A stretch of DNA of 41,979 bases from Nitrospirota bacterium (GTDB lineage Bacteria; Nitrospirota; Nitrospiria; Nitrospirales; Nitrospiraceae): assembly GCA_016207025.1 (NCBI GenBank), contig JACQQM010000147.1:1-41979 (forward strand). Reading direction: 5' to 3'. The notes beneath the pieces are model-generated. The model ran no database searches. It was not told where the DNA came from and saw nothing but the letters and a program-made list of their open reading frames with translations. The translations under genes and the position numbers were made by a program. Each line of letters begins with the position of its first letter. The stretch's first letter is position 1. Positions 32,782 to 41,979 of the stretch are shown here, piece after piece.

Positions 32782-32866
32782 GCAGCGGGCGTTGGATGGA
32801 CGCACACAAGATGCCGGTGGCGAGTTTGCCGAAAGGGTTCATGACGGTCTTGACAAGGAGGCCACT

Positions 32867-34198
32867 GTGAGAATGGTGATGCGGTACGGGATCGGAATCA
32901 TCTCGGCCGTGTTCGGTGTCGCCGTGTGGGCAAGCGGAGCCTGGGCCCAAGAGGCATCGCAATTGCCTGCTGTGTCCAAGATCAATAGCGGGGACACGGC
33001 CTGGGTCCTGGCCGCCTCAGCGCTGGTGCTGGCCATGGTCTCCCCGGGCCTCGCCCTGTTTTACGGCGGGCTGGTCCGGAGCAAGAATGTGCTGGGCACG
33101 ATCATGCACAGCTTCATCATCCTCTGCCTGGTCAGCCTGATCTGGGTGCTGTGCGGGTACAGCCTGGCCTTCGGGCCGGATAAAGGCGGGGTGATCGGAG
33201 GTCTGGACTGGGCGGGGCTGAGCGGCGTCGGAGTGGACCCCCATCCGAGGTACGGTCCCACGATTCCTCATCAGGCCTTTATGGTGTTTCAGCTCATGTT
33301 TGCCGTGTTCACCCCGGCCCTCATCACCGGCGCCTTTGCCGAGCGCATGCGGTTCAGCGCGTTGCTGCTGTTCGCCGTCTTATGGTCGCTTCTGGTCTAT
33401 GCCCCGTTGGCGCATTGGGTCTGGGGCGGTGGCTGGCTGAAGAAGCTGGGAGCCTTGGATTTTGCCGGCGGCACGGTTGTGCATATCAGTGCGGGCGTCG
33501 GCGCGCTGGCCTGCGCCTTGGTGCTGGGCCAGCGCAGGGGGTACGGGACCGACTATATGGCGCCGCACAACCTGCCGTTCACCCTTCTGGGAACCGGGTT
33601 GCTGTGGTTTGGGTGGATCGGGTTCAATGGCGGGAGCGCGCTGGGGGCCAATGGCACCGCCGTCGGCGCCATTGTCGCGACCCAGACGGCCGCGGCCACT
33701 GCGGCGCTGACCTGGATGGTGGTGGAATGGCTCCATCGCGGCAAACCGACGGCACTGGGTGTGGCCAGCGGGGCGGTGGCCGGCATGGCCACCGTGACCC
33801 CTGGGGCCGGCTATGTCTCGCCCTTCTCGGCCATCCTGATCGGGCTCGCGGCCGGCACGTTCTGCTATTTCGCCATTGTCTGCAAGGGGAAACTTCGCTA
33901 TGATGATTCGCTTGATGTGGTCGGCATCCATGCGGTTGGTGGGATCACCGGGATTCTGGCCACGGGGCTCCTTGCCTCCAAGGCGATTAATCCTTCGGGG
34001 GCGGACGGACTCTTCTTTGGAAATCCCGCCCAGTTTGGCATTCAGGCGATGGCGGCATGCGCGGCGGTGCTCTTCTCCTTCATCGGCACGTACATGATCC
34101 TCAAGCTGGTCGACGGCCTGATGGGATTGAGGGTGTCTTCGGAAGAGGAAGCGATCGGCTTGGATCTCAGCCAACACAATGAGCGAGCCTATTCGTGA
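32867..34198 (+). CDS. amtB: Ammonium transporter (Amt family)
   Basis: SGDTAWVLAASALVLAMVSPGLALFYGGLVRSKNVL; DFAGGTVVHISAGVGALA; HAVGGITGILATG; GTG start after AAGGAGG. Confidence 0.95.
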   Translation: MRMVMRYGIGIISAVFGVAVWASGAWAQEASQLPAVSKINSGDTAWVLAASALVLAMVSPGLALFYGGLVRSKNVLGTIMHSFIILCLVSLIWVLCGYSLAFGPDKGGVIGGLDWAGLSGVGVDPHPRYGPTIPHQAFMVFQLMFAVFTPALITGAFAERMRFSALLLFAVLWSLLVYAPLAHWVWGGGWLKKLGALDFAGGTVVHISAGVGALACALVLGQRRGYGTDYMAPHNLPFTLLGTGLLWFGWIGFNGGSALGANGTAVGAIVATQTAAATAALTWMVVEWLHRGKPTALGVASGAVAGMATVTPGAGYVSPFSAILIGLAAGTFCYFAIVCKGKLRYDDSLDVVGIHAVGGITGILATGLLASKAINPSGADGLFFGNPAQFGIQAMAACAAVLFSFIGTYMILKLVDGLMGLRVSSEEEAIGLDLSQHNERAYS

Positions 34199-34221
34199 TC
34201 GAGTGAGCCATAAGCGGATAG

Positions 34222-37346
<3,125 letters not shown>

Positions 37347-37370
37347 GTCGGAGATGAAAGGAGGATCGGA

Positions 37371-38780
37371 ATGAATTCCCGCGAAGTGTTGGAGTACGCA
37401 AAAAAGAACAAGGCGCAGGTTGTGGACCTCAAGTTCGTGGATCTGCTTGGAACCTGGCAGCATTTCTCGATCCCGATCGAGGAGTTGGGCGAGGATACGT
37501 TCAAGAACGGTTCCGGATTCGACGGATCATCCATCAGAGGATGGAAAGCCATCCAGTCCAGCGATATGCTCGTTGTCCCGGATCCGGCCACCGCCTGCAT
37601 GGATCCCTTTATGGCGGTGCCAACGCTGAGCCTGGTCTGCAACGTGGTGGATCCGATTACCCGGGAAGCCTACGACCGGGACCCGCGGAACATTGCGCAG
37701 AGAGCCGAAAAGTATCTCAAGGGCACAAAGATCGGCGACATCTCGTATTGGGGGCCGGAGGCTGAGTTCTTCATCTTTGACCAGGCCCGCTATGACCAGA
37801 ACAGCCACAGCGGCTATTACTTTATCGATTCCGAGGAGGGAATCTGGAACTCCGGCAAGGAAGGGGTGAACCTTGGTTCGAAGCCCCGGCACAAAGAAGG
37901 GTACTTTCCGGTGGCCCCGACCGACACTCAACAGGATATCCGGAGCGAGATGATCCTGGAAATGCAGAAGGTGGGGATGTCGGTCGAGAAGCAACACCAC
38001 GAGGTGGCGACGGCCGGCCAAGCCGAGATCGACCTGCGCTTCGACTCTCTGGTGAACATGGCCGACAAAATGATGATGTACAAGTACATCATCAAGAATG
38101 TAGCCCGCCGGCACCACAAGACCGTCACGTTCATGCCCAAGCCGCTCTTCGGCGACAACGGTTCCGGCATGCACACGCATCAGAGCATCTGGAAAGAAGG
38201 CAAACCGTTGTTTGCCGGCAAAGAGTATGCCGGGGTGTCCCAGCTCTGCTTGTACTATATCGGCGGCATCCTGAAGCACGCGACGGCCCTGGCGGCCTTT
38301 ACCAACCCGACCACCAATTCGTATAAGCGACTCACCCCTGGGTTCGAAGCGCCCGTCCTGCTGGCCTATTCCAGCCGCAACCGGTCCGCCGGCATCCGCA
38401 TCCCGATGTATTCGCCAAGCCCCAAGGCCAAGCGGATCGAAGTGCGGTTTCCCGACCCGGCCTGCAATCCGTATTTGGCCTTCTCCGCGATGCTCATGGC
38501 CGGCCTGGACGGCATTGAGAACAAGATCGATCCGGGCGAGCCGATGGACAAGGATCTCTACGACCTCGAGCCTCGGGAAGCGGCCAGGATCCCGACCATG
38601 CCGGGCAGTCTTGATGACGCCATCAGAAATCTTGAGAAGGACCATCAGTTCCTGCTCAAGGGCGGCGTGTTCAGCGAGGACTTGATCGAGACCTGGATTG
38701 CGTATAAGCGCGGTCGTGAAGTGGACCAGCTTCGGCTGCGCCCGCATCCCTACGAATTCTTTATGTACTACGACGTGTGA
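37371..38780 (+). CDS. glnA: Glutamine synthetase type I
   Basis: [55 protein letters not shown]. Confidence 0.98.
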
Positions 38781-39019: not shown

Positions 39020-39074
39020 TCAATCCGGGCGTCGGCTGTGATGGCACGTCCAGCCCGGTGGCAAAGGAATTGTG

Positions 39075-40334
39075 ATGAGTGTAGCTGAAGTCATGGCGGG
39101 ACAGCTCGAAGAATTCCTCACGGACGAGTGCGCCGCGCTTGAGACCATGGCCGTGGTGTTGGCCGGAGGAGGGTCCCCGCAACAGAGGGTTGACCACGCG
39201 CTGGAACTGCTCCAGCACCGCCTCCGCGTGCTGCGGGCCAGGCTCGTTTCAAGTGAGTCTGGGGCCGAGGTGTTCTCCAAGCCACCGAAGCGGCTAGGGG
39301 GGGCGGACCATTCACAAGCCAAAGAAGCGACAGCGGTGACGAGTCGCCACGCGGGTCTGGTCGGACACAGCGCCGCGGTGCAACAGGTCTATCAGGCGAT
39401 TGAGCGTGTCAGTCACAGCCAGGCAACGGTCCTGCTGCGGGGAGAAAGCGGGACGGGCAAGGAACTGGTCGCCAAGGCGATCCACCTGGAAGGGCCTCGG
39501 GCGGATGGCCCGTTTATTCGTCTGCACTGCGCGGCGGTGACCGAAACCCTGCTGGAGAGTGAGCTGTTCGGTCATGAGCGCGGCGCGTTCACCGGCGCAG
39601 TGGAAACGCGCAAGGGACGGTTCGAACTGGCTGATGGAGGCACGTTGTTCCTGGATGAAATCGGCGATGTGCCCCTGGCCATCCAGGTCAAACTGCTCCG
39701 CGTCCTGCAGGACAAATGTTTCGAGCGGGTAGGGGGAAGCCGGTTGGTGATGGTGGATGTGCGTGTGATTTCCGCCACCCACCGCGATCTGGAAGCGATG
39801 GTGCGGGCGGGGGAGTTCCGGGAAGATCTGTATTACCGCCTCAACGTCGTCCCCATCGCGTTGCCGCCGCTGCGAGAGCGCGAAGGGGACATTCCGCTCT
39901 TGATCGAGCATTTCCTGGCTCGCTTCAATCGGGAGAACCGCCGGCAGGTGCGTTTGGGCCATGATCTGCTGGCCCTCATGGGGCGGTACCATTGGCCAGG
40001 TAATGTGCGGGAACTTCAGAACTGTGTGGAGAGGCTGGTGGTCATGGCCGACTCCGATCACGATCTGGTGACGTTCGAGACCATTCCCCCGTCGCTGCGC
40101 GGCTATTTTGCGGACATGAGACAGGTTACAGGCGCGGATCAAGGTAAAGGCGGAAAAGAGCGGGCGGAAGGGCAGCCGCTTGGCGCAAGCCTGCAAGCCA
40201 TCGAACGACAGCGGCTGCTGGATGCGCTCGAGCGAGTCGGGTGGGTGCAGGCGAGGGCGGCTCGCGCCCTGGGGCTGACGCCCCGGCAGGTGGCGTACAA
40301 GATGCGGAAGTACGGGATCTGTGAGTTGAAATGA
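39075..40334 (+). CDS. Sigma-54-dependent transcriptional activator (AAA+ and Fis-type HTH, no receiver domain)
   Basis: [15 protein letters not shown] Walker [33 protein letters not shown]-term [25 protein letters not shown]-term ~85 aa unrecognised. Confidence 0.93.
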
Positions 40335-40566: not shown

Positions 40567-41007
40567 ATGGAAGAAAAGAAGGCGAGGGATATGATTAAGG
40601 CCAAGCGGCTGGAGAAAAAGGTAACGATTGCCCAACTGGCCAAGACGGTTGGGAAAAATTCGATGTTCGTGGCAGCGGCCCTGCAGGGTAACCACCGTCT
40701 GACCGAGGAGGAGGCCAAGAAGGTAGGACACGCGCTAGGGCTTGATAAGGAGACCACCGAGGCGCTCAGCAAGTTTCCAGTTCGAACCGATTTTCCGAAC
40801 GCCACCGACCCGTTCAAATACCGTCTCCTGGAAGTCATCGGAGTGTATGGAGATGCCCTGCGAGAAATGGCCAACGAGATGTTCGGCGACGGCATCATGA
40901 GCGCGATTGATTTTACGATCGACATGGAACGGGTGACCGGGAGCCAGGGTGAGGCCCGCTGCAAGATCACCTTGAATGGCAAGTGGCTGGAATACAAGAC
41001 ATTTTGA
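40567..41007 (+). CDS. cynS: Cyanate hydratase (cyanase), cytoplasmic
   Basis: HTH-like N-domain; DPFKYRLLEVIGVYGDALREMANEMFGDGIMSAIDFTIDMERV...ITLNGKWLEYKTF; catalytic R, E, S present. Confidence 0.96.
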   Translation: MEEKKARDMIKAKRLEKKVTIAQLAKTVGKNSMFVAAALQGNHRLTEEEAKKVGHALGLDKETTEALSKFPVRTDFPNATDPFKYRLLEVIGVYGDALREMANEMFGDGIMSAIDFTIDMERVTGSQGEARCKITLNGKWLEYKTF

Positions 41008-41142
41008 CAGAAGGGGGTGGTGTCACAGTTATGGCTATCTAAAGAAACCTTCAGGTGCGAGTCGTCATGGAGCTAGGCGGCGGCTCAGAGTGTCGCACAT
41101 CGCGTTCAACCATTTCATGTTCATGAACAGAGGAGGTCGGTC

Positions 41143-41703
41143 ATGAAATTCTTCACCTTGAGCGCCTTGGCTCTGCTGCTCCTAGGTTTTTGGCAGGGGG
41201 CGGCATGGGCAGAAATTGAGAGCGACGTGGTCGATATGATCGCCCAGGAGAGTCTCGATAAACGCAAGCCAACGTTGGCCGTCGCTAACAAAGCGGCCGT
41301 GGCGAAGAAACTGACACTCGAAGCGCTGGGGATGGCCTGCAAGTTGATGCCGATCCGGGTAGGTGCAGTGCTCACCGGACAGGCACCGATGGAGAAAAGG
41401 TCGCAGGAGTGTCTCGAGAAGCAGCTCGGCCTGAAGGCCGGCAGCCTCGCCCCGCTGCTAGAGCCCCCGGCCCGGTGGAATGTGGGGTCCATCTATCGGG
41501 TTCACGAGGCCATCGACGTCTACGCTCCAGCGATCCAGCGGTGGTTCAACGAACATTTTGGCGATTACATCATGTCGGCCATTGACTTTGTGGTGGAAGT
41601 GAAGGAGACCAAGGGCAGCCACGGTGACCGCCGCATCCAGATCATCTTCGATGGCAAGGCGTTACCATATTCCGATGACGAAGGCTGGGCAGCGACGCAG
41701 TAG
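41143..41703 (+). CDS. Cyanase-family protein with predicted Sec signal peptide
   Basis: MKFFTLSALALLLLGFWQGAAWA|EIES leader; C-domain SIYRVHEAIDVYAPAIQRWFNEHFGDYIMSAIDFVVEVKET...IIFDGKALPY aligns with CynS; R, E, S spacing retained. Confidence 0.85.
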   Translation: MKFFTLSALALLLLGFWQGAAWAEIESDVVDMIAQESLDKRKPTLAVANKAAVAKKLTLEALGMACKLMPIRVGAVLTGQAPMEKRSQECLEKQLGLKAGSLAPLLEPPARWNVGSIYRVHEAIDVYAPAIQRWFNEHFGDYIMSAIDFVVEVKETKGSHGDRRIQIIFDGKALPYSDDEGWAATQ

Positions 41704-41825
41704 GGACTGTGAGGTGCTGGGGATGAAACTTCGCAGGCTCTTCCCGGCAGCCTGCGCCAAGCAGCCACAGGGGGGACGAGAAGCAACGAATCGAGTCGAT
41801 CCCATTCAATGTTAGGAGGTGTGTC

Positions 41826-41979
41826 ATGAGGGCTCTGACGCTCAGCACTTTGTGTCTACTGATTGGAGGGCTGTGGCTCTCTGCATTAGCACAGGCAGAA
41901 ATTGAAAGCAGTGTCGTAGACGGGATTGCGCACAGCAGTTTTCACAAGCGCAAGGCGACCTTAGAGAAGGCCAACGAAG
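41826..41979 (+). CDS. Second signal-peptide-bearing paralogue, N-terminal part only (runs off window)
   Basis: Hand translation MRALTLSTLCLLIGGLWLSALAQAEIESSVVDGIAHSSFHKRKATLEKANE; mature start matches AEIESDVVDMIAQESLDKRKPTLAVANK of the preceding gene. Confidence 0.75.
   Translation, partial: MRALTLSTLCLLIGGLWLSALAQAEIESSVVDGIAHSSFHKRKATLEKANE

Follow-up and report, generated by a model that had tools for sequence, protein, structure and literature searches.

The right end of this locus raises the question of whether some Nitrospirota carry cyanases that work outside the cytoplasm. Cyanase decomposes cyanate in a bicarbonate-dependent reaction and is a decamer, a pentamer of dimers, with shared active sites. 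A 2025 comparative study of the order described its cyanases as cytoplasmic and dependent on cyanate import, and found that the cytosolic Nitrospira-type CynS adjoins CynABD/NrtABD or NirC (PMC12342949). No paper on a periplasmic or extracellular cyanase was found in the full-text literature, a coverage that leaves out most subscription journals. The window analyzed here (41,979 nucleotides) is a whole contig, C124, of the source MAG G000, which is close to Nitrospira-type bacteria (2.47 Mb, 174 contigs, completeness of 84.8%, contamination estimate of 0.46%), and carries nitrogen-assimilation genes, cynS, and a pair of exported cyanase-like genes toward its right end. As the best explanation of the whole, in which we have moderate confidence, we propose that the pair belongs to an old, patchily distributed cyanase family with Sec signals, which would be exported and would convert cyanate to ammonium in the periplasm. 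Cyanate breakdown may then take place beyond the cytoplasm, in a compartment not regarded as a site of cyanase action.

The nitrogen-assimilation block was identified by Pfam on the plus strand (32792 to 38780) and comprises genes for Amt (32792 to 34198), PII (34261 to 34623), GlnD (34620 to 37346), and GlnA (37371 to 38780), with coordinates counted from the first in-frame starts. Upstream of cynS on the same strand is a gene for an NtrC-type sigma-54-dependent activator (39072 to 40334; PF00158, 1.8e-72; HTH_8, 1.2e-13), which may in fact start a few codons later. These neighbors fit a role in nitrogen assimilation, and the exported cyanases within this cluster are probably active in the periplasm. 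The cynS gene (40567 to 41007, plus strand) encodes an ordinary cytosolic cyanase of 146 aa, which was matched by PF02560 (1.2e-30), CYNS_N (3.9e-11), and the NCBIfam cynS model (134.3 bits, above the cut-off of 113.3). Copy 1 of the exported cyanase-like genes (186 aa; 41143 to 41703, plus strand) begins 135 bp downstream, and it is followed by copy 2 (41826 to 41979, plus strand), which runs off the contig after its first 51 codons. The original prediction placed 122 bp between the two copies and gave each its own ribosome-binding site. The gap is exact, from the end of copy 1 at 41703 to the ATG of copy 2 at 41826, and a GGAGG sequence stands 6 bases before each ATG on the plus strand (41132 to 41136 for copy 1 and 41815 to 41819 for copy 2). 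Near matches to the sigma-54 promoter consensus in the window numbered 31 versus 42 expected, giving no signal, and no sigma-70 promoters or terminators were found between the genes on the coding strand.

Copy 1 was recognized as a cyanase homologue by several searches. The cyanate-lyase model PF02560 matched it at 71.8 bits (4.2e-20), compared with a gathering score of 25, and its PDB matches were cyanate hydratases only. Its score with the NCBIfam cynS model (TIGR00673) was 60.5 bits, below the curated cut-off of 113.3, and that with CYNS_N (PF21291) was 13.8 bits, below the gathering score of 27.1. Copy 1 is therefore classed as a cyanase homologue and not filed as CynS. In a Foldseek search, all 18 of the matches at E <= 0.001 were cyanases, with a weak query: the AlphaFold2 monomer model was poor, having a mean pLDDT of 60 and low confidence in the C-domain. 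The plus strand thus holds three cyanase-related genes in a row, as originally described, with cynS above the NCBIfam cut-off, copy 1 above the Pfam cyanate-lyase cut-off, and copy 2 assigned by homology to copy 1 and to the exported protein of another genome (G016). Cytosolic Nitrospira-type CynS comes from the same order of bacteria, and often from the same genome as an exported gene; however, copy 1 is only about 31% identical to it and lies outside its clade.

Export was predicted from the N-termini. Copy 1 starts with a predicted Sec signal peptide, MKFFTLSALALLLLGFWQGAAWA, followed by EIES (41143 to 41211, plus strand), with a charged start, a hydrophobic core (Kyte-Doolittle value of 2.54 over 12 aa), and an AWA/E cleavage motif. 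In copy 2, the predicted signal peptide, found by inspection and hydropathy, is MRALTLSTLCLLIGGLWLSALAQA, again followed by EIES (41826 to 41897, plus strand). The Sec signature of a charged n-region, hydrophobic core, and small-x-small site was seen in copies 1 and 2 and six homologues by inspection and hydropathy, and a hydrophobic N-terminus with the small-x-small motif was present in all seven complete members of the family. The cleavage motif is AxA/EIES in copies 1 and 2, in a third copy on contig C79 of the same MAG, and in G016, and it is LA/EIES in G021. Complete and partial copies alike are predicted to be exported through a putative Sec signal peptide. The analysis bears out the suggested family of signal-peptide cyanase homologues, of which no fewer than two follow cynS in tandem and another is found on a separate contig of the MAG. 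The N-terminal stretch could also be an uncleaved membrane anchor that tethers the enzyme on the periplasmic face, since the hydrophobic stretches are clear (Kyte-Doolittle values of 2.1 to 3.0) and cleavage itself is predicted from motif and hydropathy. We consider an anchor very unlikely, because the small-x-small motif stands at a fixed distance before the conserved mature start and because the abrupt change at EIES, with variable sequence before it and conserved sequence after it, fits cleavage by signal peptidase I.

Next, we compared the seven complete exported members with 35 cytosolic cyanases (E. coli K-12 CynS and 34 others). In a tree of these sequences, the exported members formed one clade (support of 100/99) outside the Nitrospira cynS group, indicating that the exported gene is no copy of the adjacent cynS. 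The stem of the clade is long (1.71 changes per site), so its exact placement among the cyanases is uncertain. PF02560 matched 7/7 members (best, 1.3e-22), and CYNS_N matched 3/7 at E <= 0.1 (best, 0.011). Relative to CynS (TIGR00673, PF02560 plus PF21291; E. coli CynS, PDB 1dw9), the exported family shares the C-terminal cyanate-lyase domain, and its similarity in the N-domain is weak but collinear. The catalytic residues singled out in the original prediction, R96, E99, and S122 in E. coli numbering, are kept in all seven, the C-domain of copy 2 lying beyond the contig. In copy 1, they align with R119 (41497 to 41499), E122 (41506 to 41508), and S145 (41575 to 41577) on the plus strand. Y95, Y104, E114, F116, G117, D118, I120, A123, I124, F126, G138, G148, K149, and L151 are also kept in 7/7, and nearly every C-domain residue that is invariant in the 35 cytosolic cyanases is retained. 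Estimates of dN were 0.13 to 0.33, and dS, in every comparison that allowed an estimate, exceeded 1, apart from the recent G014/G023 pair (dN of 0.06 and dS of 0.10). With dN well below dS, the family is under purifying selection.

The exported family differs from CynS in other respects. The N-domain is preceded by a signal peptide and by some 25 residues of additional mature sequence, and the C-terminus is different from that of the cytosolic set. Two cysteines of its own, Cys66 and Cys90 (codons at 41338 to 41340 and 41410 to 41412 of copy 1, plus strand), are present in 7/7 exported members and in 0/35 cytosolic cyanases at the same columns, and the retention of the pair suggests a disulfide. 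The linker is shortened in 7/7 by the loss of Asp91-Pro92 (D in 34/35 and P in 35/35 cytosolic sequences), and Gly119, found in 35/35 cytosolic sequences, is replaced by A, T, Y, or M in 7/7. It is mainly because these last two changes sit close to the active site that activity is in doubt, and it may be altered or lost. The family could accordingly consist of exported but catalytically dead homologues with a periplasmic binding, sensing, or structural role; they might, for instance, sense or scavenge cyanate or bicarbonate on behalf of the NtrC-linked nitrogen cluster. In agreement with such a role, Gly119 and the linker are changed, the scores fall under the curated cynS cut-offs, the stem branch is long, and the same genome usually has a cytosolic cynS as well. 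In contrast, members from two classes retain the catalytic residues and nearly all of the other invariant positions of the C-domain, more than binding alone would call for, and selection has been purifying; we therefore regard a dead homologue as unlikely. The low scores and the two changes near the active site, together with the poor structural model and the finding of carriers in only 5/175 genomes, are the points that count against periplasmic cyanate breakdown as the best explanation.

In addition, we investigated how the two copies are related. The 49 aligned residues of copy 2 matched copy 1 at an E value of 1.4e-7, and its DNA matched the exported genes of G016 (4e-13) and G021 (1e-11); by these matches, the similarity of copies 1 and 2 is homology and not chance. 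None of the family models matched the 51 codons of copy 2 that are present, and its catalytic domain, which would lie beyond the contig end, is deduced from homology. A recount confirmed that 18 of the 28 mature N-terminal residues of the two copies are identical (56% identity over 51 aa). However, copy 2 is closer to the G016 protein (75% over 51 aa and 25/28 mature residues), with which it grouped at a support of 78/77, and a constraint making copies 1 and 2 sisters was rejected (p-AU of 0.02, from 51 residues). Because copy 2 is nearer to the protein of another genus than to copy 1, the tandem duplication originally proposed does not hold as a recent local event. These short sequences give moderate evidence that the tandem pair is not freshly duplicated, and they fit an older divergence of paralogues, or transfer. 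Copies 1 and 2 would then have split before the present neighborhood arose or before the related genera separated.

The third exported copy of the MAG is complete and lies away from cynS (C79, locus L035, 3233 to 3808), and it is 70% identical to copy 1. Some ORFs beside it, at about 1527 to 2197 on the minus strand, read as a MazF/RHH-type toxin-antitoxin pair. As to the suggested expansion within the genome, a single clade holding copy 1, copy 2, and the C79 gene was not rejected (p-AU of 0.34), which leaves the expansion neither shown nor rejected. The copies might work together, as originally suggested, as hetero-oligomers or as forms specialized for different substrate levels; this is speculation, and we hold it to be quite unlikely. 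Two different tandem paralogues, both preceded by a strong ribosome-binding site, would suit a joint function, and according to the title of PDB entry 1dw9 the active sites of cyanase lie between subunits, so that mixing is possible in principle. On the other hand, a single exported copy was found in each of G016, G014, G023, and G241, so that one suffices there, and the catalytic domain of copy 2 is beyond the contig end.

An artefact of assembly or binning, with a chimeric contig end or with extra copies from another organism, was also weighed. The MAG is fragmented and incomplete, the contig terminates inside copy 2, and C79 is only 6 kb long. However, the contamination estimate is low, and the GC content of C79 (0.578) is close to that of the window (0.596). 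G021 independently shows the same gene order (L038, contig C218, 316 to 5075), with one exported gene directly after cynS. A continuation of copy 2 past position 41979, which would have extended the array, was sought on the other contigs of the MAG and none was found; no G000 contig besides C124 itself shares the C124 end sequence. An artefact is therefore most improbable. The G021 contig ends 133 bases past its exported gene, where a second copy would begin if the order were that of the window. Upstream of its cynS are a substrate-binding protein, a permease, and an ATPase, whose translations read as a nitrate/nitrite/cyanate-type ABC transporter.

The distribution of the exported family was examined by profile searches. 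It was found in 5/175 genomes of the bacterial family (G000, G014, G016, G021, and G023), which represent five genera, and a class-wide search of 270 genomes gave no carrier beyond those five. An evenly drawn sample of 396 genomes of the phylum added a single carrier, from a different class (G241). A scan of GTDB r220 with one genome per species recovered only four genomes, all of them known carriers, with strict patterns that would miss members as divergent as that of G241. The original description of the family as lineage-specific thus holds only in part, since this real exported family is spread over five genera plus one genome of another class. The best reading of these sequences is that the family is old and patchily distributed. 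The named relatives that carry it are 'Nitrospirae' or 'Nitrospiraceae' MAGs from sediment-labelled (CR_Sed), 'nzgw', and Lake Baikal bins. The plasmid sequences searched held ordinary cyanases only, aligned from residue 60 onward among the matches listed, and no exported homologues were found in viral contigs.

If the family works as proposed in the best explanation, the proteins would cross the inner membrane and be cleaved after A-x-A, the family-specific cysteine pair perhaps would stabilize them there, and they would assemble through the cyanase C-terminal domain. Cyanate and bicarbonate would then be converted in the periplasm to ammonium and CO2, whereupon Amt, whose gene is close by, would take up the ammonium and glutamine synthetase would assimilate it. 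Such an enzyme would spare the cell cyanate import and protect envelope proteins from carbamoylation, and an alternative benefit of this activity might be to detoxify cyanate before it carbamoylates them. It would need a supply of bicarbonate and a proper quaternary structure in the periplasm. Export, the oligomeric state, activity, and physiological role in this scheme are all deduced from sequence. A stronger reading, that a periplasmic family separate from CynS has partly adapted through its cysteines to the oxidizing envelope, that some Nitrospirota make ammonium outside the cytoplasm, and that two or three paralogues do so here, is put forward as tentative. It would imply cyanate use that does not depend on a cyanate importer, and the released ammonium could be assimilated or shared with ammonia oxidizers. 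An exported cyanase, if real, would change the site of ammonium release and who gets the ammonium, and genomes without a recognizable cyanate transporter would need rereading. Expression of a single gene would be enough for a direct test of the idea.

We then considered the metabolism of the carriers. A search for the AmoA family gave no match in the six carrier genomes, whereas the same search was positive in 58/172 genomes of the family. With the search working in comammox relatives, the carriers, incomplete MAGs as they are, probably are not ammonia oxidizers, which counts against an exported cyanase that feeds the carrier's own ammonia oxidation. An NxrA-like ORF of > 1100 aa was evident only in G014 and G023; none was evident in G000, G016, or G021, even though completeness reaches 97% in G016. 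Either these three MAGs fail to include NXR or their genera do not oxidize nitrite. Cyanate serves nitrification as a source of nitrogen and energy, and cyanase-bearing nitrite oxidizers can feed ammonia oxidizers (PMC9239080, citing Palatinszky et al. 2015). In the same report, cyanases of Nitrotoga and of Nitrospirae from Lake Baikal make up a cluster of their own. One of the genomes with the exported gene is a Lake Baikal MAG (L045), and the sequences are perhaps the same, although no signal peptide is described in the passages compared.

Cyanate is made in the periplasm in the 'cyanate pathway' of thiocyanate dehydrogenase and cyanase (PMC6504805), and this is the compartment where an exported cyanase would be useful. 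The sole candidate neighbor examined, in G014 (L039, 6200 to 7600), is an exported cupredoxin fused to a YVTN-type beta-propeller beside a c-type cytochrome. Its best PDB matches were a surface-layer propeller, hydrazine synthase beta, and amicyanin, and no thiocyanate dehydrogenase was among its matches at E <= 0.001.

Two further cyanase loci were observed. On contig C169 of G000 (L036, 357 to 7247), a second cytosolic cynS (2163 to 2603) lies behind ORFs that read as an ABC permease and ATPase. It is followed by genes for Amt, a Rieske protein, cytochrome b, and a multihaem cytochrome, in an order that is the same in G016 (L041) and resembles the petBC-plus-octahaem-nitrite-reductase arrangement of PMC12342949. 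Contig C23 of G004 (L034) encodes a very divergent cytosolic cyanase (YRMTE...FGDGIMSAIDF) with a branch length of 1.97, possibly of the Nitrospina-like type mentioned in the same study.
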